From assembly GCF_033170155.1 (NCBI RefSeq), contig NZ_CP137079.1, forward strand, positions 310,001 through 374,000: a DNA stretch of 64,000 bases. The letters run 5' to 3'. The position numbers and the translations under genes are program-made. Under the pieces are notes generated by a model. It was given only the letters and a program-made list of their open reading frames with translations, searched no databases and was not told the DNA's origin. The DNA comes from Raineyella sp. W15-4 (GTDB lineage Bacteria > Actinomycetota > Actinomycetes > Propionibacteriales > Propionibacteriaceae). How positions within the stretch are numbered: the first letter of the stretch is position 1; the number at the start of each line of letters is the position of its first letter. This document shows, in pieces, positions 857 through 16,000 of this stretch.

Positions 857-3184
857 TCAGCGCAGGACGCCCCGCGCGGCGAGCGCCGCGACCCGTTCGG
901 CGGGGTAGCCGAGCGCGGTCAGCAGCCGCGTCGTGTCGGCGCCCAGCACCGGCGCCGGGCGCCGGATCGGGGTGGCCCGGTGGGGCGTACGGATCGGGCT
1001 GGCCTCGCTGAGGTGCCGGCCGGCCACCGGGTGGTCGACCGGCTGGAAGAAGCCGCGGTGGCCCAGTTGGGCGTCGGTGAGCAGGTCCCGGCCGTCCTGC
1101 ACCGGGGCGGCCGGCACGCCGGCGGTGAGCAGCGTTCCCGCGGCGTCGGTGGCGGACCGCTGCCCGGTCCAAGCGCCGATCGCGGCGTCGATCCCGGCGG
1201 CCGCGGCCCGCCGGCCGGCCGCGGTGGCGTACCCGGGGTCGGTCGCCAGGTCCGGCCGGTCGAGCACCCGGCAGAGCGCGGCCCAGTCCGCGGCGTCCCG
1301 GACGGCGACGGCGACCCAGGCGTCCGGCCCGAGGCAGCGGTGCACTCCGTGCGGGGCGAGGTCCGGGTCCGCGTTGCCCAGCGGCACCGGGGGCGCCTCG
1401 GGGTGCGCGGCCGCATCGAGCAGCACGGTCCCGAGCGAGGCGGCGGACGCCTCCAGCTGGGACAGGTCCAGGTGGGCGCCGCGGCCGGTCACCCGGCGGC
1501 AGGCCAGGGCGGCGACGACGGCGAGGGCACCGTGCAGGCCGGCCACGATGTCGGCGTGGCCGTAGATGACGCCGACCACCTCGTCGGGGCCCCAGCCGGT
1601 CAGCGCGGTGAGTCCGGAGGCGGCCGAGACGATGTCGGCGTACGTCACCCAGTCCCGGCGCGGCCCGGTGTGGCCCATCCCGGACATCGACAGGTAGACG
1701 ATGTCCGGCCGCAGCCGGCGCAGTTCCTGGTAGCCGAGACCCATCCGGGCCATCACCGAGGCGCTGAAGTTCTCCACCACGACGTCGGCGGAGGCGATCA
1801 GGTCCGCCAGCACCGCCCGGCCCTCGTCGGTGCGGGTGTCGAGCGCGATGCTGTGCTTGTTGCGGTTGTACTCGTTGAAGTAGCCACTGGTGTCCGGCCC
1901 GGCGGTCCGGTCCCGGGACAGGTGCATGGCGGGGTTGAACCGGGTCGGGTCCGGGCGGCGCACCGATTCGACCTTGATCACCTCGGCGCCGTGGTCGGCG
2001 AGCACCCGGGTGGCGAACGGCCCGGCCAGCACCCAGGTGAGGTCGACGACCCGGACCCCCGCGAGCAGCGCCGCTGGGCTCGGTGCCGGTCCTGCTGCGG
2101 CACGGGCCGCCTCGGCCCGAGGCGCCGTGACCGTCGGCCCGATGCCGGGAACGGGCGGGCGCAGTGGCCCGGCCGGCGCCCCCTCGACCCGAACGCCGAA
2201 GCCGAGGTCGGGGACGACCCGCCCGTCCAGGCAGGTCGGCCGGAAGAAGTCGCGGGAGAGCAGCTGTGGATCCTGCCGCAGCCGGTCGGGCGGATCGACC
2301 GCCGCCCAGGGCAGCCGGCGGGCCTGGGCCCGCTCCGCCCAGTCGGCCGCGTCGACCCCGGCCAGCAGATCGTCGAGGGCGGTGAAGAGTGCCGTGCGAT
2401 CGGCCGCCCGCGCTTCGGCGGTGGCCCAGCGTGGGTCGGCCAGGCCGGAGTCGAGGCCCTCCTCGGCGAGCCAGTCGAGCAGGTCGTCCCACATCCGCGG
2501 GCTGCCGCCGAGCCCGCCGCCGAGGTACCCGTCGGCGGTCCGGAACAGCCCGTGCAGCACCAGTGGGTGTTGCCGACCCGGCCGGGGGTCGACCCGGTCG
2601 GCGTGGATCGCGGTAAGTGCCCCGGTCTCCAGGCACCCGGCGACCGCCTCGAGCGCCGACACCTCCAGCACCGGGGCCGGGTCCCACCGGCCCGCCGCGA
2701 GGCAGAGCACCGCGGCGATCGCGCCGTACGCCCCGGCCAACTGCTGGGCCTGGTCCTGCGGCAGCCGCAGCGGCGGTGAGTCGGGGGTGCCGACCTGGGC
2801 GAGCATCCCGCCGCGGGCCGCGACGGTCAGGTCGGTGGCCGGCAGCCGCGCGGCCGGGCCGTCGCTGCCGTACGGGGTGATCCGGACTGTGGCGACCCGG
2901 GTGGGCACCCCGGCGGGCAGGCCGTCGGTGTGCAGGATGACGTCGGCGCCGCCCGTGAGCGTATGCCACCGGGCCGGGTCGGCCGCCGGGTCGAGCAGGA
3001 CCGAGGACTTGCCGGCGTGCCAGTGGGTGAACGGGATGCCGTCGCGGACCGCCCGCTCGGGACTGCCGCCCGGGGGCTCCACCAGCACCACGTCCCAGCC
3101 GAGCCCGACCAGCATCCGGCCGGCGGCGCGGGTCCACGGGCTGGCGAGCTCCAGCACCCGGGGCCGGCCGGTCCCGGCCGTCAC
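857..3184 (-). CDS. Fused double-domain CaiB/BaiF family CoA-transferase
   Basis: This 775-residue protein is about twice the usual length of class III CoA-transferases and consists of two tandem CaiB/BaiF units, roughly residues 5-360 and 373-775. Family members move CoA between carboxylic acids through an aspartyl-CoA intermediate. In the C-terminal unit the expected Asp is D545 in YGHADIVAGLHGALA. In the N-terminal unit the aligned segment is DQAQQLAGAYGAIA with Q148 at that position, so only the second half seems catalytic. The chosen start is GTG 3184, which overlaps the TGA of the upstream hydrolase (GTGA) and implies translational coupling. The frame stays open further upstream, but that stretch is antisense-like and overlaps a real gene. 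It probably activates an acid intermediate to a CoA thioester for the enoyl-CoA hydratase encoded in the divergent operon. Confidence 0.9.
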   Translation of the reverse strand: MTAGTGRPRVLELASPWTRAAGRMLVGLGWDVVLVEPPGGSPERAVRDGIPFTHWHAGKSSVLLDPAADPARWHTLTGGADVILHTDGLPAGVPTRVATVRITPYGSDGPAARLPATDLTVAARGGMLAQVGTPDSPPLRLPQDQAQQLAGAYGAIAAVLCLAAGRWDPAPVLEVSALEAVAGCLETGALTAIHADRVDPRPGRQHPLVLHGLFRTADGYLGGGLGGSPRMWDDLLDWLAEEGLDSGLADPRWATAEARAADRTALFTALDDLLAGVDAADWAERAQARRLPWAAVDPPDRLRQDPQLLSRDFFRPTCLDGRVVPDLGFGVRVEGAPAGPLRPPVPGIGPTVTAPRAEAARAAAGPAPSPAALLAGVRVVDLTWVLAGPFATRVLADHGAEVIKVESVRRPDPTRFNPAMHLSRDRTAGPDTSGYFNEYNRNKHSIALDTRTDEGRAVLADLIASADVVVENFSASVMARMGLGYQELRRLRPDIVYLSMSGMGHTGPRRDWVTYADIVSAASGLTALTGWGPDEVVGVIYGHADIVAGLHGALAVVAALACRRVTGRGAHLDLSQLEASAASLGTVLLDAAAHPEAPPVPLGNADPDLAPHGVHRCLGPDAWVAVAVRDAADWAALCRVLDRPDLATDPGYATAAGRRAAAAGIDAAIGAWTGQRSATDAAGTLLTAGVPAAPVQDGRDLLTDAQLGHRGFFQPVDHPVAGRHLSEASPIRTPHRATPIRRPAPVLGADTTRLLTALGYPAERVAALAARGVLR

Positions 3185-4023
3185 CGGCCCTCCGCGAGGA
3201 ACATCGCGAGCAGCGCCTCGAACTCCGCGGCCCGCTCGTACGGCACCCACAGGCCGGTGTCGGCGAACAGGTGCAGCCGGGCGCCGGGGATCCGCCGGAG
3301 CAGGAACAGCGCGTTGTCGTAGCCCTGGATCCGGTTGTGGGTGCCCCAGACGATCAGCGTCGGCGCGGTGATCCGGTCGGCCTCCCGCCACGGCTCCTCG
3401 GCCGCCGGGTGTCCGGCGACGGTCCCGGCCGGCCCGTCGGAGGTGGCCCGGCGGACCGACTCCTGGTAGCGGTCGCGGACCAGGTCGGCGGTGATCAGCG
3501 TGTGGTCGTGCATCATCAGCTTCAGGTACGCCTCCATCCGCTCCGGGGAGGGACCCGCGCCGGCGTAGTAGCCGCGGATCGCCTTCTGTCCCTCGGACGG
3601 CATGGTGGTGAACAGCGGCAGCCCGCCGGCACTGGAGACCAGCACCAGCCGGTCCACCCGGTCGGGGTGGTCGACGGCGAGCTTCATCGCCACCGCGCCG
3701 CCGGTGGCCATCCCGACCACGTCGGCCCGCTCGATGCCCAGTGCGGTCAGCATCCGGGCGAACAGCTCGGCCAGCCCCGCGTACCGGCCGCCCTCGATCC
3801 CGAACGGGTCGGAACGGCCGTAGCCCGGCAGGTCGACGACCAGCACCCGGTGGTGGGCCGCCAGGGCGTCGACGTTCTGCCCGAAGTTGCCCCACCCGTA
3901 CGCCCCCGGGGCGCCGCCGTGGATGCACAGCAGGACCGGGCCGGTGCCGGCCTCGTGGTAGTGGATCCGGGTCGGGCCGACGCTGACGAAGCGTGAGGTC
4001 GATTCCTGGGTGGAGGGCGTCAT
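3181..4023 (-). CDS. Meta-cleavage-product hydrolase homologue lacking the catalytic triad
   Basis: The 280-residue alpha/beta-hydrolase closely follows the MhpC/BphD pattern of C-C bond hydrolases, including the oxyanion-side motif IHGGAPGAYGWGNFGQN. All three triad positions are changed. The nucleophile elbow reads GMATGG (A106 for Ser), the acid position reads WGTHNRI (N230 for Asp), and the His position reads ADTGLWVPYE (L258 for His). The codons agree clearly, so this is not a frameshift. Length and codon use are normal, so the gene looks maintained rather than decaying. It heads a three-gene minus operon and is divergent from an intact paralogue. It may bind a pathway intermediate, form a complex with the intact enzyme, or catalyse a non-hydrolytic step; these are inferences. 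Confidence 0.88.
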   Translation of the reverse strand: MTPSTQESTSRFVSVGPTRIHYHEAGTGPVLLCIHGGAPGAYGWGNFGQNVDALAAHHRVLVVDLPGYGRSDPFGIEGGRYAGLAELFARMLTALGIERADVVGMATGGAVAMKLAVDHPDRVDRLVLVSSAGGLPLFTTMPSEGQKAIRGYYAGAGPSPERMEAYLKLMMHDHTLITADLVRDRYQESVRRATSDGPAGTVAGHPAAEEPWREADRITAPTLIVWGTHNRIQGYDNALFLLRRIPGARLHLFADTGLWVPYERAAEFEALLAMFLAEGR

Positions 4024-4030
4024 GGCCCGG

Positions 4031-4036
4031 ATGCTA
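4031..4036 (-). promoter_or_regulatory. -10 box of a leaderless promoter for the triad-less hydrolase
   Basis: TAGCAT on the minus strand lies 7 nt before ATG 4023. This places transcription start at or next to the start codon and leaves no room for a ribosome binding site. Confidence 0.5.
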
Positions 4037-4075
4037 GGCAGCCGGGCCGCCCACCCCCGAGGCCGCCGGACTGCT

Positions 4076-4102
4076 CAGTGGACCCGCCGGCGGGGTCCAC
4101 TG
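4076..4102. promoter_or_regulatory. 10-bp inverted repeat, probable operator between divergent operons
   Basis: CAGTGGACCC (4076-4085) is perfectly repeated inverted as GGGTCCACTG (4093-4102) with a 7-nt spacer. It lies in the 130-bp gap between the two divergent catabolic operons, about 50 nt upstream of the intact hydrolase start. No regulator gene lies next to it inside the window. Confidence 0.6.
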
Positions 4103-4126
4103 GCCGGACCTGGATCGTGGTGCGGA

Positions 4127-4156
4127 CATGGCCCGATGCGGTCCCATCGGGCCATG
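4127..4156. promoter_or_regulatory. 11-bp inverted repeat spanning the start codon of the C-C hydrolase
   Basis: CATGGCCCGAT (4127-4137) is perfectly repeated inverted as ATCGGGCCATG (4146-4156) with an 8-nt spacer. The right arm ends in the ATG of the downstream gene. It could be a DNA operator, or in RNA a hairpin that hides the start codon. Confidence 0.55.
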
Positions 4157-5023
4157 ACACAGCCTCCCCCGAGCCACTTCACCACCGTCGCCGGCGTCAC
4201 GTACCACTACCACGACCTCGGCGAGGGGACGCCGACGATCTTCCTGCACGGCGGGGGCCCGGGCTGCACCGCCTGGTCCGACTTCGGGCCGGTGGCACCG
4301 CTGTTCGCCGCCGACCGGCGCTGCCTCCTGGTCGACCTGCTGCAGTACGGCCGGTCCGACAAGGGCGAGATCGAGGGCCCGATGTGGGACCACCACGCGG
4401 CCAAGCTGGTCGCGCTGATGGACGACCTGGGCATCGAGCGGGCCGACTTCGTCTGCAACTCGTGGGGCGGCCACATGGCCCTGAAGATCGCCGCGGACCA
4501 TCCGGAGCGGGTCCGGACCGTCACCATCACCGGCAGCATGCCGGTCTTCCGCGGCCCGCTCGGCCCGCTGCCGGAGAACGGCCACCGCGGCCGCAGTGCC
4601 CGGGACCGCTACTACGGCGGCGAGGGCCCGACGAAGGAGAAGCTGCGCGAGCTGATCACCGGCCTGGAGTGGTACGACGGCGACCGGCTTCCCGAGGAGA
4701 CGCTGGAGCTGCGTTACCGGCAGAGCCTCGACCCCGAGGAGATGGCACTGGCCGGCGGGTCGGACAACCCGCGCGGCGAGTGGCAGGACATCGCCGGTGA
4801 CCTGGGCAGGATCCAGGCGCCGGTGCTGATGGCCTGGGGCATGTACGACGGCTTCCTCACCCCCGACTACCCGCTGATGCTGGCGAGCATGATCCCGCAC
4901 GGCCAGCTGTGGATCATGGACCAGGCCTCCCACCATCTGCAGGAGGAGCGGCCGCACGACTACTACACGATGGTCTCCGGCTTCCTCGCCCAGCACCTGC
5001 CCGGTGAGGGGGACCGGGCATGA
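4154..5023 (+). CDS. Meta-cleavage-product type alpha/beta hydrolase (C-C hydrolase), triad intact
   Basis: The 289-residue protein starts at ATG 4154 (MTQPPPSHFTTVAGV). The frame is open further upstream, but that part lies in the operator region. It has the family oxyanion motif LHGGGPGCTAWSDFG, nucleophile S103 in VCNSWGGHM, acid D232 in WGMYDGF and a base His at H260 in DQASHHLQEE. Family members hydrolyse the carbon-carbon bond of 2-hydroxy-6-oxo dienoates formed by extradiol ring cleavage, in the cytoplasm. Its stop overlaps the next start (ATGA), and an MhpB-like dioxygenase follows two genes later, which supports this job. Heteroaromatic ring-cleavage hydrolases of the same fold are an alternative. 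Confidence 0.88.
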   Translation: MTQPPPSHFTTVAGVTYHYHDLGEGTPTIFLHGGGPGCTAWSDFGPVAPLFAADRRCLLVDLLQYGRSDKGEIEGPMWDHHAAKLVALMDDLGIERADFVCNSWGGHMALKIAADHPERVRTVTITGSMPVFRGPLGPLPENGHRGRSARDRYYGGEGPTKEKLRELITGLEWYDGDRLPEETLELRYRQSLDPEEMALAGGSDNPRGEWQDIAGDLGRIQAPVLMAWGMYDGFLTPDYPLMLASMIPHGQLWIMDQASHHLQEERPHDYYTMVSGFLAQHLPGEGDRA

Positions 5024-6390
5024 CCGCCCCGGTCTTCGGCAACGCCTCCATCCCGGCCGACGGTGACACCCACCTGCGCGGCCTCGACGGGGTGCTGCGG
5101 GACCGGGTCCGGGCGGCCGCCGATCTCGTCACCGCCGAGCGGCTGGCCGAACTGGTCAGCGGACTGGTCGACGTGCCCAGCCCCACCGGTGACGAGCGGC
5201 CGGTCGCCGAACACCTCGTCGACCGGCTCACCGCTGCCGGTCTGGCCGCCGAACTGATGCCGCTGGACGACCGGCAGGCCAACGCCTGGGGCCGGCTGCC
5301 CGGCGACGGCACCGGCCCGTCGCTGATGCTGTACGCCCCGACCGACACGGTCACTACCGGTGACCCGGCCGAGGACCTGCCGTGGATCGGGGCGATGCGC
5401 CCCGACCTGCAGGCCCGCGCCGAGGTCCGTGGCGATTACGTGATCGGCCTGGGCGCGTCCAACCCCAAGGGCCACGCGGCCTGCGTGCTGGCCGCGGTCG
5501 AGGCGATCGCCGCCGCCGGGATCCCGCTGCACGGCGACCTTGTCGCAGCGTTCGGCGCCGGCGGGATGCCGACCAACGCCCGCCCGGGCGTCGACAACCC
5601 GCGGCTCACCACCGGCCAGGGCGCCGGCTGCTCCTTCCTGCTCGAGCAGGGTGTGCACACCGACTACGCGGTGATCGCCAAGCCCGGCTGGACCGTCGCC
5701 TGGGACGAGGTCGGCCTGACCTGGTTCGAGATCGTCGTGCACGGCACCCACACCTACACCGGCTCCCGGCACCGGCTGCCGTACCACAACACCGTCCGGC
5801 TCGCGGCCGAGGTGGTCTGCCGGCTGGAGGACTGGCTCCCCACCTACACCGCCCGGCACACCGGCGGCCAGGTCGCCCCTCAGGGCATGGTGGCCAACGT
5901 CCACGGCGGCTGGACCCGCACCGCCTCCTTCACCCCGGAGAACGTCCGGTTGATGGTCGACCTGCGGATCAGCCCGCGCTCCACCCCGAGCGAGGTGCGC
6001 CGCGAGCTCGAGGCCGAGGTCGCCCGGATCGCCGCCGAGCTCGGCACCACGGTCGACGTACGTCCCGTCCTCGCCATCCCCGGGGTGGCGAGCGACCCCG
6101 ACTCCTGGTTCGTCCGCCGGGCCGTCGGCGCCTGGGAGGCCGTCACCGGCCGGGAGCACCCGCGCACCGACAACGGCTCCGGCGCCACCGACGCGGCGAT
6201 CCTGCGCAGTCGCGGCATCCCGACCGTACGGATCGGCATGCCGAAGATCACCGATGCGCCGTTCCCGGTCGACTTCGCCATGGGGATGAACGCCGTCGAC
6301 CTGCGCGAGGCTGCCGCCTTCACCCGATTCCTGATCCGCTTCGCGCTCGAGGTCGCCTCGAGCGACCTCGACACCGCGGAGGTGCACTGA
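5020..6390 (+). CDS. M20-fold peptidase/deacylase homologue lacking metal ligands
   Basis: The 456-residue protein has the M20 (ArgE/DapE/carboxypeptidase G2) layout with a catalytic domain and an inserted dimerisation domain around residues 225-345. The standard metal-ligand positions are altered. GHxD reads YAPTDTV (P107), GAxDMKG reads GASNPKG (N148), the DEEGG position reads FGAGGMP (around 179-182), the EP motif reads AKPG (K221), and the C-terminal ligand region reads AMGMNAVDL without His. The TDAA segment is kept. The protein therefore probably does not use the normal two-zinc chemistry. It is translationally coupled on both sides (ATGA with the hydrolase, TGATG with the dioxygenase), so it belongs to the ring-cleavage pathway. 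Its reaction is unknown. Confidence 0.82.
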   Translation: MTAPVFGNASIPADGDTHLRGLDGVLRDRVRAAADLVTAERLAELVSGLVDVPSPTGDERPVAEHLVDRLTAAGLAAELMPLDDRQANAWGRLPGDGTGPSLMLYAPTDTVTTGDPAEDLPWIGAMRPDLQARAEVRGDYVIGLGASNPKGHAACVLAAVEAIAAAGIPLHGDLVAAFGAGGMPTNARPGVDNPRLTTGQGAGCSFLLEQGVHTDYAVIAKPGWTVAWDEVGLTWFEIVVHGTHTYTGSRHRLPYHNTVRLAAEVVCRLEDWLPTYTARHTGGQVAPQGMVANVHGGWTRTASFTPENVRLMVDLRISPRSTPSEVRRELEAEVARIAAELGTTVDVRPVLAIPGVASDPDSWFVRRAVGAWEAVTGREHPRTDNGSGATDAAILRSRGIPTVRIGMPKITDAPFPVDFAMGMNAVDLREAAAFTRFLIRFALEVASSDLDTAEVH

Positions 6391-7343
6391 TGGCACAGAT
6401 CGTCCTGGGCGTGGGAGCGTCCCACAGCACCCTGATGAACACCCACTGGGAGGAGACCACCCACCGGGAGGAGGCGATCACCTTCCGCGACGGGCTGGCG
6501 GAGGCCCGCCGCCGGGTCGAGGCGGCCCGGCCGGACGTGGCGCTGATCATCGGCTCCAACCACTTCCGCGGCTTCTGGCTCGACCTGATCCCCGGCTTCA
6601 CCCTCGGCGTGGGGGAGTGTCTCGCCAGCGGTGAATCCGGCACCCCGAAGGGCCCGCAGCCGGTGCACACCGGGCTGGCCCGGCACATCGTCGACGACGT
6701 CGTCGGGTCCGGCCGGGGCGACCTCGCCTTCTCCGCCCGGATGCAGATCGACCACGGCCAGAGCCACGCCATCCAGTACCTGCTGGCCGGGCTCGAGGTC
6801 CCGATCATTCCGCTGGTGGTCAACGTCTTCGCCCAGCCGCTGCCACCGCTGGCGCGCTGCCGGGAGGTCGCCGAGGCGATCCGGGCCGCCGTGGCGAGCT
6901 ACCCCGAGGACCTGCGGGTCGTGGTGATCGGCTCCGGCGGTCTGTCCCACCGGTTGCCCTGGCCTGACTGGCGTGCCCCGGAGGGCGAGGACGAGGAGTT
7001 CATGGTCCGCGCCTGGCTGGACGGTCGGCTCAACTGGTCCGACTACGACGTCCGCCGACGACAGATCATCCGCGCGGCGACATCGGCGATCACCCCGGAG
7101 TGGGACGAGGCGGTGATCGACACGTTCGTCGCCGGTCGGACCGCCGAGCTCTACGCGTACCGCACCGAGGACCTCGAGCGGGAGGCGGGCAACGGGTCCC
7201 AGGAGTTGCGCTCCTGGCTGATGATGGCGACCCTGCTGGGCGGGGCGCCGGCCGAACGGATAGCGTACGCGGCCGTGCCGGACTGGCTCACCGGGATGGG
7301 CGTCATCAGCATCACGCCGGCCGCCGCCCCGGACCGGGCCTGA
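6390..7343 (+). CDS. Extradiol ring-cleavage dioxygenase, MhpB/LigB type (class III)
   Basis: The 317-residue protein resembles 2,3-dihydroxyphenylpropionate 1,2-dioxygenase (MhpB) along its full length. Expected catalytic and iron-binding histidines are present: H12 in GASHSTLM, H58 in GSNHFRG, H122 in QIDHGQSH and H187 in GSGGLSHRLPWP. The C-terminal PDWLTGMG segment also matches MhpB. Such enzymes insert O2 next to the hydroxyls of a catechol-type ring to give a 2-hydroxy-6-oxo dienoate, which the intact hydrolase at 4154 would then split. The start codon overlaps the previous stop (TGATG). The ring substrate cannot be read from sequence; no ring hydroxylase is encoded in the window. Confidence 0.9.
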   Translation: MAQIVLGVGASHSTLMNTHWEETTHREEAITFRDGLAEARRRVEAARPDVALIIGSNHFRGFWLDLIPGFTLGVGECLASGESGTPKGPQPVHTGLARHIVDDVVGSGRGDLAFSARMQIDHGQSHAIQYLLAGLEVPIIPLVVNVFAQPLPPLARCREVAEAIRAAVASYPEDLRVVVIGSGGLSHRLPWPDWRAPEGEDEEFMVRAWLDGRLNWSDYDVRRRQIIRAATSAITPEWDEAVIDTFVAGRTAELYAYRTEDLEREAGNGSQELRSWLMMATLLGGAPAERIAYAAVPDWLTGMGVISITPAAAPDRA

Positions 7344-7347
7344 CGCC

Positions 7348-8319
7348 ATGGCGCCGCCTGTCCTGGTCCTCGGCCGGGCGGCCGTGCCCGACCTGACCGC
7401 CGCCCTCACCGACCTGCCGCACCCGCCCGACGTGCTGCTCGCCGAGGACCGGGCGGCCATGCTGCGCCACCTCGCGGTGGCCGGCGCGGTGATCGCCGAC
7501 TGGTCCGGCCGGCTGGTGCTGGACGCCGCGGCGGCCCGGGCCGGGGGGCAGGTCCGGCTGATCCAGTACCCGGGCGCCGGGCTGCACTCGATCGACGTCG
7601 ACGCCTGGCGGCGCGCCGGTGCGGAAGTCTGTCATCTCCCCGGCGCCAACGCCGCGTCGGTCGCCGAATGGTCCGTGCTCGCCGCCGGAGCGCTCTGCCG
7701 CCGGCTGCCCGGGCTCGACCAGGACCTGCGGGCCGGGCGCTGGACCTCCGGCGCGGACGTCCGCGACCTGTCCGAGCGCCGGGTCGGGGTGCTCGGCGGC
7801 GGGGCCGTCGGCTCCGCCTGCCTGCGCCTCTTCGCCGCCTTCGGCTGCCCGGTCTCCTACCATTCCCGTCGGCCACGCCCCGAGCTGCCGTACGAGTGGC
7901 GCCCCCTCGACGACCTGCTCGCCGGCTCCGACGTGCTGGTGGTGGCCGTCCCGCTCACCCCGGCCACCCGGGGCCTGCTCGGTGCCGGAGAGATCGCCCG
8001 GCTGCCGGCCGACGCGCTGCTGGTCAACGTCGGGCGTGGCCCGGTCACCGACGAGGACGCCGTGGCCGATGCGCTGCGGACCGGCCGGCTCGGCGGCGCG
8101 GCCCTCGACGTGTTCGGCGCCGAGCCACTGCCCGCCGACCATCCGCTGCGGGCGGCCCCACACACCCTGCTCAGCCCGCACGTCGCCGGCGGATCGGGGA
8201 CGGCGCGCCGGCAGATCTTCGCCGGCGTGGCCGACAACCTTGCCCGGGTCGCGGACGGCCGCGAGCCGCGCTGGCGCTGGCCCACCCCGAACCCACCGAA
8301 GGCAGGCCACGATGACTGA
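7348..8319 (+). CDS. D-2-hydroxyacid dehydrogenase, NAD(P)-dependent
   Basis: The 323-residue protein has the D-isomer-specific 2-hydroxyacid dehydrogenase fold. The nucleotide-binding motif is VGVLGGGAVGSACL, the substrate Arg is in NVGRGPV, the Glu is in DVFGAEP and the catalytic His is in LSPHVAGG. It would reduce a 2-oxoacid or oxidise a D-2-hydroxyacid. Four bases separate it from the dioxygenase stop, and the next gene overlaps it by 8 nt, so it belongs to the same operon. A 2-oxoacid is a typical product of meta-cleavage pathways, which makes this a plausible late step. Confidence 0.85.
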   Translation: MAPPVLVLGRAAVPDLTAALTDLPHPPDVLLAEDRAAMLRHLAVAGAVIADWSGRLVLDAAAARAGGQVRLIQYPGAGLHSIDVDAWRRAGAEVCHLPGANAASVAEWSVLAAGALCRRLPGLDQDLRAGRWTSGADVRDLSERRVGVLGGGAVGSACLRLFAAFGCPVSYHSRRPRPELPYEWRPLDDLLAGSDVLVVAVPLTPATRGLLGAGEIARLPADALLVNVGRGPVTDEDAVADALRTGRLGGAALDVFGAEPLPADHPLRAAPHTLLSPHVAGGSGTARRQIFAGVADNLARVADGREPRWRWPTPNPPKAGHDD

Positions 8320-9073
8320 CACTCCTGCCGTCCGTACACCCACCCGGCGGGTCGCCTGGGTCACCGGCGGCACGTCGGGGATCGGCCTGGCCGCCGCGCG
8401 CCGGCTCGCCGCTGACGGCTGGCAGGTGGCCGTCAGCGGGCGCGACCGTTCCCGGCTGCGGGCCGCCGCCGACCTGCTCGGCGGGGACCACCTGACGATC
8501 GGCTGCGACATCGCCGATCCCGACAGCGTCCGCGGCGCCGTCGAGCAGATCCACGAGCGTGCCGGCGACCCCTCGGCCCTGGTCGCTTCGGCCGGCTCGT
8601 TGCTCAAGGGCGAGCTCACCGACCACTCCGACAACGAACTGGCCGACCTGCTGGCCACCAACGTGCTCGGTGCGATGAACGCCTGCCGAGCCGTCATCCC
8701 CGGCATGCGGGCGTACGGCTGGGGCCGGATCGTCACTGTCTCCTCCGTGCTCGCCTCGGTCGGCGCACCCCGACGGGCCGCGTACGCCGCCACGAAGGGC
8801 GCAGTGCTGGCCCTCACCCGTGGGCTGGCGGTGGATCTCGCCGCCGACGGGATCACCGTCAACGCGGTCGCCCCCGGCCCGACCCTGACTCGGCCCGACC
8901 TCGGCCAGGCCGACGACCCGGTGGCCCGGGCGATGGTCGCCGACGTCGTCCCGCTCGGCCGCTGGGCGGCCCCGGCCGAGGTCGCCGCACTGGTCGCCTT
9001 CCTCTGCTCCGAGGCCGCGTCGTACTGCACCGGCGGCCACTACCCGGTCGACGGCGGCTACCTCGCCCGCTGA
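8312..9073 (+). CDS. Short-chain dehydrogenase/reductase
   Basis: The 253-residue classical SDR has the cofactor motif VTGGTSGIGLAAA, the NNAG-equivalent ASAGSL, catalytic Ser in TVSSVLAS and YAATK. The C-terminus GGHYPVDGGYLAR is typical of FabG-like SDRs. The start at ATG 8312 overlaps the end of the hydroxyacid dehydrogenase by 8 nt. It probably oxidises or reduces a hydroxyacyl or cyclic alcohol intermediate of the operon's pathway. Substrate and cofactor (NAD or NADP) are not determined. Confidence 0.87.
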   Translation: MTDTPAVRTPTRRVAWVTGGTSGIGLAAARRLAADGWQVAVSGRDRSRLRAAADLLGGDHLTIGCDIADPDSVRGAVEQIHERAGDPSALVASAGSLLKGELTDHSDNELADLLATNVLGAMNACRAVIPGMRAYGWGRIVTVSSVLASVGAPRRAAYAATKGAVLALTRGLAVDLAADGITVNAVAPGPTLTRPDLGQADDPVARAMVADVVPLGRWAAPAEVAALVAFLCSEAASYCTGGHYPVDGGYLAR

Positions 9074-9104
9074 CCACGCCTCTCTCACCCACCGAAGGAC
9101 CCCG

Positions 9105-9875
9105 ATGGACCCCGTCATCCACTGTGAGCAGGCCGGCGGCGTCGGCACCCTCACCATCAACCGCCCCCCGGTCAACGCCGTCGATCCCGCCCTGATCGCC
9201 GACCTCCGTGCGGCCGTCACCGCCTGCGCCGACGACCCCGCGGTCCGCTGCCTGGTCATCCGCGGCACCGGCTCGTGCTTCGTCGCCGGCGCGGATCTGC
9301 GGGTGATGCGCGACCTTTCCCTCGGCACCCAGCGCCTGATGCGTGGCTGGGTGACCGTGCTCGAGCTGATCGAGGCCACCCCCAAGCCGGTGATCGCCGC
9401 TCTCAACGGCCATGCCCTCGGCGGCGGGGCGGAACTGGCCTTGGCCTGCGACCTGAGGATCGCCGCCGAAGCCGCGACGGTCGGCTTTCCCGAGGTCACC
9501 CTCGGACTGATCCCGGGCGCCGGCGGGAGCGTACGGCTGCCCCGGCTGGTCGGCCCCCACCTCGCCAAGCGGCTGATGATGGACGGCTCCCGGCTGACCG
9601 CCCGCGAGGCAGAGCGTCTTGGCCTGGTCGACCTGGTGGTGACTCCCGAGGAGTTCGAGGACACAGTCCGGCGCACCGCCCTGGACTATGCCACCCGTGC
9701 CACCGCGGCGATCGGGGAGATCAAACGGATGGTGCGGGCCAGCGCCGACGGAGCCCTTGCTGCAGCCAGCGCAGCAGAGTTCGAGGCCGTCCTGCGGCTG
9801 ACCGCCACCGACGACGCCGCCGAGGGGCTACAGGCCTTCCTCGACAAGCGCCCCGCCGTCTTCTGGGGTCGCTGA
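9105..9875 (+). CDS. Enoyl-CoA hydratase/isomerase family protein
   Basis: The 256-residue crotonase-fold protein carries both catalytic glutamates of true hydratases, in HALGGGAELALACD and FPEVTLGLIPGAGG, plus the oxyanion segment SCFVAGADLR. It is the last gene of the plus operon, 31 nt after the SDR. It would hydrate a 2-enoyl-CoA made after CoA loading by the fused CoA-transferase of the divergent operon. The last 48 bp overlap the convergent amidase. Confidence 0.88.
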   Translation: MDPVIHCEQAGGVGTLTINRPPVNAVDPALIADLRAAVTACADDPAVRCLVIRGTGSCFVAGADLRVMRDLSLGTQRLMRGWVTVLELIEATPKPVIAALNGHALGGGAELALACDLRIAAEAATVGFPEVTLGLIPGAGGSVRLPRLVGPHLAKRLMMDGSRLTAREAERLGLVDLVVTPEEFEDTVRRTALDYATRATAAIGEIKRMVRASADGALAAASAAEFEAVLRLTATDDAAEGLQAFLDKRPAVFWGR

Positions 9876-11051
9876 CCCGATCGTGCGCCCCAGCGCCAGC
9901 AGGTCCCGGTCGCTGCCCGCCGGGCCGACCAGGGACAGCCCGCAGGGCAGCCCCGCAGCCGTCCGCAGCGGGATCGCCAGTGCCGGCAGGCCGGACAGCC
10001 CGGCGATGCAGGTGAGTTGCAGGGTGGACGTCCGGGCGGGCCCGGTGGCCGGGTCCGCGCCGGAGCGCGGTGGCGGCACGGTCGCGGTGCTGGGCACCGC
10101 CAGCACCTCGTCGCCGATGGCGCGGCGTACGGTCCGGGCGATCCGCCGCCGGGCGGCCAGCGCCCGGTCCCGCTGCGCGTCGGTGATGGTGGCGGCCCGA
10201 CGGAACCGCTCGGCCACCGCGGACCCGAGCGCCCCCGGATGGGCGGTCACCCAGGCGCCGTGCTCGGCCCACGCCTCGTGACCTTGGATGGTCACGAACA
10301 CTTCCCGCCAGTCGGCCAACGGCCAGCCGGTGCCGTCGGCCGGGCCGGGCTGGATGCCGCGGACGTCGAGGGGGAGCGGACCGGCGAGGAACTCCCGGAT
10401 CGCGGCGGCGACGTCCGGGTCGGCCGCGTCGAGCAGCTGGTCGCTGACCAGGATCGCGGTGAACGTCCGGCCGGCCGCCAGCGGCAGCAGCACCTTGCCG
10501 ACTGCCTCCAGCAGGGTGGGTTCGCGGGTCAGCCAGCCGACGGTGTCGAAGCTCGGCGCCAGCCCGTGGACACCTTCGTGGGAGACCGCACCGTGGGTGG
10601 TCCGGATGCCCCACAACCCCTGGTAGGCGGCCGGCACCCGGATCGACCCGCCGGTGTCGGTGCCGAGCCCGATGTCCGCCAGCCCGAGAGCGACCGCCGC
10701 CGCCGATCCGGAGCTCGACCCGCCGGGCACCCGGTCCGGGCAGACCGCGTTCGGCGGGGTGCCGTAGTGGGGATTGGTGCCGGCCAGAGAGAAGGCGAAC
10801 TCGTCGGTCCGGGTGATTCCGACCACTGTCGCACCGGCCCGCATCAGGTCGTCGACCACCCGGGCGTTGCGGTCCTGCAGTGGCGCCTCGGCCAGGAAAG
10901 TGGGGTTGCCGGCGCCGATCGGCTGGCCGGCGATGGCAAACAGGTCCTTGACCGCCACTCGGGCGCCCCCCAGCGGCCCACTGGACACCTGCGGCATCAG
11001 GTCGTCATCGGCCAGCCGCCAGATGGTCGGGTCAAAGGTGCTGGTGGTCAT
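9828..11051 (-). CDS. Amidase (amidase-signature family)
   Basis: The 407-residue protein has the Ser-cis-Ser-Lys triad of the amidase-signature family: K35 in ARVAVKDLF, the cis-Ser region GGSSSGSAA (residues 110-116) and nucleophile S136 in TDTGGSIRVP. The start is ATG 11051 because a TANNNT box lies 7 nt before it. Longer in-frame starts would run through the promoter repeats. The substrate is an amide, but which one is unknown. Its place beside the ring-cleavage operons suggests cleavage of an amide in the growth substrate or of a ring-opened N-heterocycle; that is inference. It overlaps the hydratase gene tail to tail by 48 bp. Confidence 0.87.
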   Translation of the reverse strand: MTTSTFDPTIWRLADDDLMPQVSSGPLGGARVAVKDLFAIAGQPIGAGNPTFLAEAPLQDRNARVVDDLMRAGATVVGITRTDEFAFSLAGTNPHYGTPPNAVCPDRVPGGSSSGSAAAVALGLADIGLGTDTGGSIRVPAAYQGLWGIRTTHGAVSHEGVHGLAPSFDTVGWLTREPTLLEAVGKVLLPLAAGRTFTAILVSDQLLDAADPDVAAAIREFLAGPLPLDVRGIQPGPADGTGWPLADWREVFVTIQGHEAWAEHGAWVTAHPGALGSAVAERFRRAATITDAQRDRALAARRRIARTVRRAIGDEVLAVPSTATVPPPRSGADPATGPARTSTLQLTCIAGLSGLPALAIPLRTAAGLPCGLSLVGPAGSDRDLLALGRTIGSATPEDGGALVEEGL

Positions 11052-13030: not shown

Positions 13031-16000
13031 GGGCCCGGGCGCCGACCTGCCGTCCGCCGACCTGCGGACTGCCGCCGAGCTGGCCGTCCCGACCGCCGAA
13101 CGCTGGTGGCGGGCCGCCCACGGCGGCCACCGCGCCGCACCGGTAACCCTGCTCGGCCGGGTCGCCGGCGACCCGGCCGAGACGCGCTGGCTGCTCGACT
13201 TCGTCGACCGGGTGGTCCGGCCCGAGGACGACCGCACCGCCGCGTACGCCCTGCACCGGCTCACCGCGACGATCCCGGACTCGCTGCCGGCCCCGCTGCG
13301 CGGGCTGCTCGCCGCCGGTGGCGCGACCGGGCCGGAGGTGCCCGGCGTCGTGCTGCCGCTGGCCCGCCGGGTGCTCCGGGCGCTGGTCGGGGACCTGGTC
13401 GTCGACGCGACCGACGAGCGGCTCGGCGCCGCCCTGGCCCGGCTCTCCGGCACCGGCTGTGCCCTCAACATCAACCTGCTCGGTGAGGCGGTGCTCGGTG
13501 ACGGTGAGGCGGCCCGTCGGCTGGCCGACGTCGAGCGGCTGGTGCGCCGCGACGACGTGACGTACGCATCGCTCAAGGTCTCCTCGGTGCTCGGCCCGCA
13601 CAACCCGTGGGGCTTCGACGCGGCGGTCGACCGGGCGGTCACCCGGCTCGAGCCGCTCTACCGGCTGGCCGCCGGCCGACCCCGTCCGGTGTTCCTCAAC
13701 CTGGACATGGAGGAGTACCACGACCTGCACCTCACCCTGGCGGTCTTCCGCCGGCTGCTGGATCTGCCGGGTCTGGCCGGTTCTCCCGGTGGCGTGGTGC
13801 TGCAGGCCTACCTGCCCGACGCGCTGCCGGCATACCAGGAGCTGGCCGGCTGGGCGACCCGCCGGGTGGACGCGGGTGGGGCGCCGATCCGGGTCCGGCT
13901 GGTGAAGGGGGCCAACCTGGCGATGGAGACGGTCGACGCGGTGCTGCACGGCTGGCCGGTGGTGACGACCGGCTCGAAGGAGGCCACCGACGCCAACTAT
14001 CTGCGGCTGCTCGACCGGGCGCTGACCCCGGAGGCCACCCGAGCGGTCCACCTCGGCATCGCCGGGCACAACCTCTTCACCCTCGCTCTGGCCTGGGAGC
14101 TGGCCGGCCTGCGCGGTGTCCGGGACCGGGTCGAGGTGGAGATGCTGGCCGGGATGGCCCCGGCCCAGGCCGCGGCGGTCCGCGCCGACGTCGGCCGGCT
14201 GCGGCTCTACGTCCCGGTGGTCCGGCCCGAGGAGTTCGACGTCGCGCTGGCCTATCTGGTCCGCCGGCTGGAGGAGAACGCCGCGCCGGGCCACTATCTC
14301 GCCTCCCTCGGCGACCCGGATCCGGAGGCCGGCCTGGCCCGGGAGCGGGACCGGTTCCGGGCCGCGGTCGCCCGGTGGGCCACCGAGGGGCCCGAGGCGG
14401 TCGGCCCGCGCCGCCGCCAGGACCGTACGCTGCCCCCGCCGCCGACCGGTGTGCGCCGCGCGACCGGCTTCCACAACGCCCCCGACACCGACCCCGCGCT
14501 GCCTGCCGCGCTCGCCTGGGGCCGCCGGATCCTCGCCCGGGTGCCCGACTCCCGCCTCGGGATCACCACCGTCGAGCAGGCCCGGATCGACGACCCGGCC
14601 CGGCTGGACGCGCTGATCGGGCACACCGAACGGGCCGGCGCCGGCTGGGCGGCCCGGACCCCGTTGGAGCGGGCCGCGATCGTGCACCGGATCGGCGACG
14701 AACTGGAGGCGGCCCGGGCGGACCTGCTGGAGGTCGCCGCCGCCGAGTGCGGCAAGACCCTCGACCAGTCCGACCCGGAGGTGTCCGAGGCGGTGGACTT
14801 CGCCCACCACTACGCCGAGGAGTCGCTGCGGCTCGACCGCCTGGTCGGCGGCACCTTCCGACCGGTCCACCTCACCGTGGTCACCCCGCCGTGGAACTTC
14901 CCGCTGTCGATCCCGCTCGGCGGGGTCGCCGCCGCGCTGGCCGCCGGCTCGGCGGTGATCCTCAAGCCCGCCACCGCCGCCCGCCGCTGCGGCGCCCTGG
15001 TCGCCGAGGCCTGCTGGCGGGCCGGGGTCCCGCACGACGTGCTGCGGCTGGTGGCACCCGCCGACGCCGGGCTGGGCCGCCGGCTGGTCACCGATCCGCG
15101 GGTGGCCCGGGTGGTGCTGACCGGTTCGGCGGACACCGCCGCGGTGTTCCGCCGCTGGCGCCCCGAGCTCGGTCTGTTGGCCGAGACCTCCGGCAAGAAC
15201 GCGATCGTCGTCACCCCGTCCGCCGACCGTGACCTGGCGGTCCGGGACATCGTCACCTCGGCCTTCGGCCACGCCGGGCAGAAGTGCTCGGCCGCCTCCC
15301 TGGTGATCCTGGTCGGCGCCGTCGCCGGCTCGACCCGGTTCCGCGACCAGCTGATCGATGCCACCCGTTCACTCACCGTCGGCCGGCCCACCGACCCGGC
15401 CACCCGGATGGGCCCGCTCACCACGCCGCCGACCGACAAGCTGCTCCGCGGCCTGACCACGCTCGAGCCCGGCCAGCACTGGATCCTCGCCCCTCGCCGG
15501 CTCGACCCGCCTCTGTCCGACCCGCCTCTGCCCGACCCCGGGGGCCGGCTGTGGACCCCGGGGATCCGAGCCGGGGTCGCGGCCGGTAGCGAGTTCCACC
15601 GGGTGGAGTACTTCGGGCCGGTGCTCGGCGTGCTGACCGTCCCCGACCTGGAGACCGCGGTGGAGGTGCAGAACGGCACCGACTACGGCCTCACCGCCGG
15701 CCTGCAGTCGCTGGATCCCGACGAGGTGCGCTACTGGATCGACCACGTGCAGGCCGGCAACCTCTACGTCAACCGGCCGATCACCGGCGCGATCGTCCGC
15801 CGCCAACCGTTCGGCGGCTGGAAGCGGTCCGCCGTCGGTGGCGGCGCCAAGGCCGGCGGCCCCAACTACCTCTACGGGTTCGGCGAGGTGGTCCCGGCGC
15901 CGGTCACCGAGCTGGTCGCCGAACCGACCGCTCCGCTGCTGCGCCGGGTGCTGGCGGTGGGGCGTACGGTGCTGCCGTCGGAGGACGCCGTCCGGCTCGA

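Follow-up and report, generated by a model that had tools for sequence, protein, structure and literature searches.

The window analysed here is a stretch of 64,000 nucleotides of Raineyella sp. W15-4 (contig NZ_CP137079.1 of RefSeq assembly GCF_033170155.1, positions 310,001 to 374,000 of the forward strand). Our subject is one of its genes, at 3181–4023 on the minus strand, whose product resembles the C-C hydrolases HsaD and BphD of meta-cleavage pathways and lacks their Ser-His-Asp catalytic triad. The 280-amino-acid frame opens with an ATG start codon, from which the residue positions below are counted.

3181–4023, minus strand: triad-less HsaD/BphD-like alpha/beta-hydrolase-fold protein, 280 amino acids, with A106, N230 and L258; R185, N46 and W259 kept
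3901–3921, minus strand: H35–A41, the HGGAPGA oxyanion loop, with Gly changed to Ala at 38
3703–3708, minus strand: A106–T107, Ala at the nucleophile position and Thr next to it
3334–3336, minus strand: N230, the acid position
3250–3252, minus strand: L258, the catalytic His position

An earlier note made from the letters of this stretch had claimed that all three triad residues are replaced while the oxyanion loop and the overall fold are kept. In a phmmer alignment the Ser, Asp and His positions of HsaD fell on A106, N230 and L258, confirming the replacements, and C-C hydrolases ranked first among the solved structures, HsaD (1.3e-56) being followed by BphD and MhpC. A structure predicted from seven input sequences had a mean predicted local distance difference test score (pLDDT) of 87.2 and a predicted TM-score of 0.89, with pLDDT below 50 at the loop residues 134–138 and 194–206. 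Its best structural match was BphD (Z 39.4–39.5, 36% identity; for 2og1, Z 39.4 and a root-mean-square deviation of 1.8 over 273 residues), and the match to MhpC of E. coli was close as well (Z 37.5, deviation 2.0 over 275 residues). Judged by this model, the fold is the alpha/beta-hydrolase fold of BphD, MhpC and HsaD, as had been claimed. Most of the oxyanion loop is kept, though not all of it, HGGGPGA having become HGGAPGA; position 38 is Ala in all 17 triad-less proteins described below and Gly in 28 of 32 triad-bearing homologues. Among the NCBIfam models the one for HsaD, which hydrolyses the meta-cleavage product of steroids (NF045632), scored highest, at 248.3 bits, which is below its equivalogue cut-off of 400 bits; the protein likewise fell below the equivalogue cut-off of the model for BphD, the C-C hydrolase of the biphenyl pathway (TIGR03343; 167.7 against 462.15 bits), and reached 54.4 bits against a cut-off of 430 with the model for PcaC-PcaD fusions (NF051487). 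It has the fold of the meta-cleavage product hydrolases, MhpC included, and does not have their triad.

The missing triad is a trait of a whole family. We compared 17 genes from 16 genomes or records (16 genes besides the window's own, in 15 others; one genome, G444, holds two) with 32 triad-bearing homologues as controls; loci are labelled L and genomes G below. None of the 17 proteins retains any triad residue, Ser being replaced by Ala in 16 and by Gly in one, Asp by Asn in 17 and His by Leu in 17. The controls have Ser and His in 32 of 32 and Asp at the aligned column in 30, the exceptions being L008, with Asn, and the downstream gene of L027, whose Asp lies one column away. In the tree the triad-less proteins form a single branch with support of 100/99, and their neighbours are HsaD-like intact proteins, a joining supported at only 85/82. 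The hydrolase of the Mhp-type cluster of Caballeronia (L027, 26614–27492) sits in another part of the tree. Identity within the clade ranges from 45% to 95%, and 60 of the 280 positions are invariant in all 17, including N230, L258, S130, S131 and R185. The CMD protein L024_9 and the intact hydrolases L040_11 and L044_10 are not among the 17. The earlier note had held that its reading would fall if orthologues kept the triad or if a Ser-Asp-His triad lay elsewhere in the fold. Since all 17 members lack it, the orthologues do not keep it. As for a triad elsewhere, the only His residues conserved in at least 16 of the 17 members are H23, H35 and H251, which intact homologues have in 9, 30 and 13 of 30; because these are shared with intact homologues, no alternative triad is seen among the conserved His, and we rejected this possibility.

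The clade is under purifying selection, like the neighbouring enzyme genes. The ratio of non-synonymous to synonymous substitution rates (dN/dS), by a simple counting method, was 0.12–0.38 for the 12 clade pairs more than 80% identical, compared with 0.19–0.42 for the monooxygenase, dioxygenase, flavin reductase and binding-protein genes nearby (c1, c3, c5, c8) and 0.10 for one pair of adjacent intact hydrolases. Catalytic residues lost throughout a clade that is under such selection are what would be expected of a pseudoenzyme. One could still suppose a decaying pseudogene, or an artefact of sequencing or alignment, and one member does sit in a visibly decayed operon (L046, about 7606–10566), where short remnants of the flavin reductase, monooxygenase and downstream hydrolase genes lie beside a full-length triad-less gene. 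This explanation is extremely improbable, given that the frame is open in all 17 genes (16 genomes or records), the replacements are near-uniform and dN/dS is well below 1; a pseudogene was rejected on dN/dS and conservation. Because these three residues have been lost in nearly identical fashion by relatives in other soil bacteria, the triad-less protein probably does a different, non-cutting job in the breakdown of aromatic compounds. At the level of sequence, the non-hydrolytic role proposed in the earlier note has thus held up.

The clade is rare. In the named genome collection, scanned with two short exact peptide patterns and so not exhaustively, close relatives were found at four loci, in Granulicoccus phenolivorans, a Salinibacterium metagenome-assembled genome, Nocardioides sp. 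Iso805N and Streptomyces hirsutus; a fifth locus, L026, was set aside as a distant hydrolase (30% identity). A Caballeronia plasmid (L027) carries a triad-less relative of 51.5% identity, one of 72 plasmid records that matched, among which the triads were inspected in two (H1 triad-less, H4 intact). The other members came from genome searches. In a class-level sample of 394 genomes searched at E ≤ 1e-75, three genomes matched and the window's own was the only triad-less one; the other matches, L029 and L030, are intact and served as controls. At E ≤ 1e-70, matches were found in 5 of 196 genomes (6 genes) from the genus of Nocardioides Iso805N, 3 of 246 from that of S. hirsutus, 2 of 199 from the family of the Salinibacterium genome and 5 of 197 from the window's own family, each count including the genome already known. 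The triad-less gene looks accessory, because the three other genomes listed from the window's genus (G001–G003) gave no match at E ≤ 1e-70.

While the triad is gone, part of the substrate pocket remains. R185 is present in 17 of 17 members and 32 of 32 controls, N46 in 17 of 17 members and W259 in 15. We take R185 to be R190 of BphD, the substrate-carboxylate Arg, and N46 to be its N51; in known enzymes this Arg and this Asn face the substrate carboxylate. The substrate-carboxylate Arg and Asn of meta-cleavage product hydrolases are thus both found in the clade, and the Trp position of BphD is kept as well. The closest folds include Ser-to-Ala forms of HsaD and BphD with bound ring-fission products (2wue and 2puh, according to their PDB titles), an indication that ring-fission products can be held by this fold in the absence of the nucleophile. 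In effect, the window protein can be viewed as a naturally occurring relative of BphD S112A/H265A, a double mutant made in the laboratory (2pu7, PDB title), differing from it in that the acid is changed too and the Asn beside the nucleophile is lost.

The residue after the nucleophile position carries a hydroxyl in all 17 members (Thr in 16, Ser in one), whereas the 32 controls have Met (16), Leu (12), Phe (2), Trp (1) or Tyr (1). Together with Thr/Ser 107, the residues S130, S131 and Y152 are invariant or nearly so in the clade and rare or less common in the controls. The protein might still be a hydrolase, of C-C or other bonds, with an unusual mechanism that uses the hydroxyl of residue 107 or a water held by the oxyanion loop, and the presence of S130 in 17 of 17 would agree with this. 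We regard it as unlikely, however, since no conserved His or acid stands at the usual places for activation, and an intact hydrolase is encoded in the stretch read at 10 of 17 loci and an FAH-cluster gene within 6 kb at 4 of 17. Alternatively, the clade might represent a new alpha/beta-hydrolase-fold catalyst of aromatic catabolism that acts on ring-fission products without Ser, His or Asp, through a hydroxyl shifted by one residue along the nucleophile elbow (Thr/Ser 107) and through S130 and S131, and adds a step such as isomerisation. This proposal is possible but rather unlikely; if true, it would add a step that textbook meta-cleavage pathways do not have.

On the other side of a divergent intergenic region lies an intact paralogue, and further genes follow on both sides:

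4024–4153, no strand: intergenic region from which the triad-less gene and the intact paralogue diverge, the paralogue being counted from the ATG at 4154
4076–4102, no strand: perfect inverted repeat with 10-nt arms, 7 nt apart; candidate operator
4127–4156, no strand: perfect inverted repeat with 12-nt arms separated by 6 nt, extending to the paralogue's ATG; candidate operator
4154–5023, plus strand: intact alpha/beta-hydrolase-fold paralogue, 289 amino acids, 32% identical to the triad-less protein
857–3184, minus strand: CoA-transferase family III protein, 775 amino acids, two matched stretches; its first 4 bases are also the last 4 of the triad-less gene
5020–6390, plus strand: M20 family amidohydrolase (ArgE/DapE-like)
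6390–7343, plus strand: class III (LigB-type) extradiol dioxygenase; nearest models, below cut-off, are 3-carboxyethylcatechol 2,3-dioxygenase
7348–8319, plus strand: protein of the D-2-hydroxyacid dehydrogenase family
8318–9073, plus strand: short-chain dehydrogenase
9105–9875, plus strand: protein of the enoyl-CoA hydratase/isomerase family

That an intact paralogue faces the triad-less gene across a shared control region, as first noticed from the letters, is correct. Ser, Asp and His are all present in the protein at 4154–5023 (elbow CNSWGG, GMYDG with the Asp, QASHH with the His), and two inverted repeats lie in the gap, which is 130 bp long with ATG 4154 as the start; the gene caller preferred 4136. 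The repeat at 4076–4102 has no second copy at up to 3 mismatches in the window and none in the 20 kb of L020, and that at 4127–4156 has no copy in the 20 kb of L020. No sigma-70-type promoter was found at 3900–4300, a negative that carries little weight in an actinomycete. The 4154 protein is not a sister of the triad-less clade; it has a long branch and an uncertain place in the tree. A second hydrolase-fold gene of the same catabolic island lies 3.4 kb to the left of the window (L020:9755–10561, plus strand, the same as G000:C1:305755–306561). Its elbow reads G-H-H-T-G-A, with His at the place of Ser, no His is seen by eye at the usual place, and a relative of its product occurs in three plasmid records at 1e-25.

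The divergent pair with its shared control region would suit the idea that the triad-less protein is a pseudoenzyme subunit in complex with the adjacent intact hydrolase, whose activity it would tune; the earlier note had likewise named a partner role among its possibilities, with the 4154 protein in view. In a tblastn scan for hydrolases over the 17 loci, in which the stretch read was about 10 kb on each side (a 12-kb piece for L054), an intact hydrolase gene lay directly downstream in 6 of the 16 other loci (L025, L027, L040, L042, L044 and L045) and a truncated remnant did so in L046. The intact hydrolase is further off in L041, L053 and L055 and divergent in the window. C-C hydrolases can be oligomers, as in 9ijk, titled an MhpC homotetramer, and this too would suit a complex. 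On the other hand, no intact hydrolase was found in the stretch read at L022, L023, L024, L043, L052 or L054. The contig of L054 has a further hydrolase match at 13074–13820, beyond the 12-kb piece, and all six of the genomes or records, out of 16, that were searched in full have further hydrolase-family matches elsewhere (triads not individually checked). An idea that some operons carry the triad-less copy only was dropped after intact downstream genes were found in L027 and L042.

The seven triad-less proteins with an adjacent intact hydrolase, counting the window, are 49–88% identical to each other, whereas their adjacent hydrolases are 25–35% identical in 19 of 21 pairs. For L025 and L040 the triad-less proteins are 81% identical and the neighbours 31%, and for L025 and the window the values are 67% and 30%. 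The neighbour was retained in the other two pairs, L025/L045 (triad-less 88%, neighbour 95%) and L040/L042 (85% and 79%). Judging from these identities, the intact neighbours are not one lineage and are exchanged freely. It is therefore unlikely that the triad-less protein and the 4154 protein are fixed partners; the partner role of the earlier note is not supported as a specific pairing, and we give the tuned complex in general little credence. Since a hydrolase is often nearby and any of several will do, two consecutive steps fit better than a matched complex.

The surroundings of the clade often include ring-cleavage genes. Within 6 kb of the triad-less gene we found an HsaA-like monooxygenase of the ACAD fold at 12 of 17 loci, an HsaC-like two-domain dioxygenase at 12 and a flavin reductase at 10; these neighbour-family counts, unlike the hydrolase scan, rest on the gene caller, which missed intact genes in L042 and L027, and may be low. 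The naming rests on the operon mates of the triad-less gene in L025, which match the models of HsaA (352 bits), HsaB (165) and HsaC (247, compared with 251 for the biphenyl-2,3-diol dioxygenase model), none of them reaching the equivalogue cut-offs. The HsaC-like dioxygenases look able to function, having two His and one Glu at the metal-ligand positions of BphC in 13 of 13 compared (a 205-amino-acid piece of L027 was left out). At eight loci the triad-less gene either shares 1 nt with the HsaA-like gene or begins no more than 35 nt behind it. The window carries the LigB-type dioxygenase in place of the HsaC-like enzyme, and its genome has one clear HsaA-like match, far off at C1:2278447. The four loci with an FAH-cluster gene within 6 kb are L022, L024, L043 and L055, Pfam having been tested on the one in L024. 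In L043 (9238–10677, minus strand) a CMD domain and a triad-less hydrolase domain are fused in one frame of 479 amino acids; as in the PcaC-PcaD fusions the CMD domain comes first, and here the hydrolase half has no triad. In L024 a separate CMD gene (9543–9995) and the start of the triad-less gene share 4 bases.

Several neighbourhoods had further features. In Granulicoccus (L023:6767–9418), isochorismatase-type, arylmalonate decarboxylase/racemase-type and luciferase-like monooxygenase proteins are encoded beside the triad-less gene, a set that reminds us of N-heterocycle pathways. An MmgE/PrpD-cluster gene, with no obvious link to ring cleavage, is present at 7 of 17 loci (L022, L023, L041, L042, L044, L045 and L052; within 6 kb at 4 of 17), Pfam having been tested on the one in L023. 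The flavin reductase at L025:4064–5263 (plus strand, 399 amino acids) is matched by Pfam in its first half only; by eye, the other half resembles an effector domain of the IclR type. In the Caballeronia operon (L027:7984–10638) an IS3-family transposase gene separates a short dioxygenase-family gene from a small hypothetical frame, which looks by eye like the end of that dioxygenase-family gene.

If the triad-less protein only binds, it could be a carrier, buffer or sensor that takes up labile ring-fission products in order to pass them on, shield them or signal their presence, with no chemistry of its own. Such a role would fit the fact that all 17 members have lost Ser, His and Asp and retain the pocket Arg and Asn. 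It would also fit the family's Ser-to-Ala mutants that were solved with substrate bound, going by PDB titles, and a gene often coupled to oxygenase genes and not to a fixed hydrolase. Yet the invariant or nearly invariant Thr/Ser 107, S130, S131 and Y152, which presumably line the pocket, perhaps exceed the needs of plain binding, no DNA-binding domain is attached, and one member is fused to a CMD domain; on balance, this role is possible but rather unlikely.

The explanation we prefer, which may well be right and which we hold tentatively, is that these HsaD-like proteins have lost the triad, have kept part of the pocket for ring-fission products, and bind such products for a non-hydrolytic step. 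The protein would bind a 2-hydroxy-dienoate ring-fission product or a close analogue and carry out or assist a step that is most likely isomerisation or a tautomer change, carrying or buffering being the next choice. The product would thereby be made fit for a separate C-C hydrolase, either another alpha/beta hydrolase or an enzyme of the fumarylacetoacetase family. In the window, the LigB-type dioxygenase (6390–7343) would open the ring and the 4154 protein would be the hydrolase. Three observations weigh against this explanation. The residue before the nucleophile position, which is Asn in BphD (N111), is Leu or Met in 17 of 17, departing from the meta-cleavage product hydrolases, and therefore the carboxylate pocket is only partly kept. 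In BphD the tautomer step is attributed to the His (H265), and with that His lost a tautomerase would need another base. Finally, both the HsaA-like and the HsaC-like families are missing from the gene calls, where genes can be missed, in L022, L023, L052 and the window, and the link with ring cleavage is therefore not universal.

Dead homologues of enzymes are a known kind of protein. We found no description of a triad-less clade of meta-cleavage hydrolases in the literature searched, which was seen as titles and abstract openings and included few subscription journals. The Caballeronia copy is annotated in its record simply as an alpha/beta hydrolase, and pathway models built from annotation could therefore assign the hydrolysis step to a triad-less protein. 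A conserved triad-less clade beside genes of the HsaA, HsaB and HsaC types suggests an extra, unassigned step, or a binding protein so far overlooked, in some meta-cleavage pathways. In this clade nature also offers a test of how much the substrate-binding half of a C-C hydrolase achieves by itself; the solved Ser-to-Ala mutants approached the same question from the laboratory.

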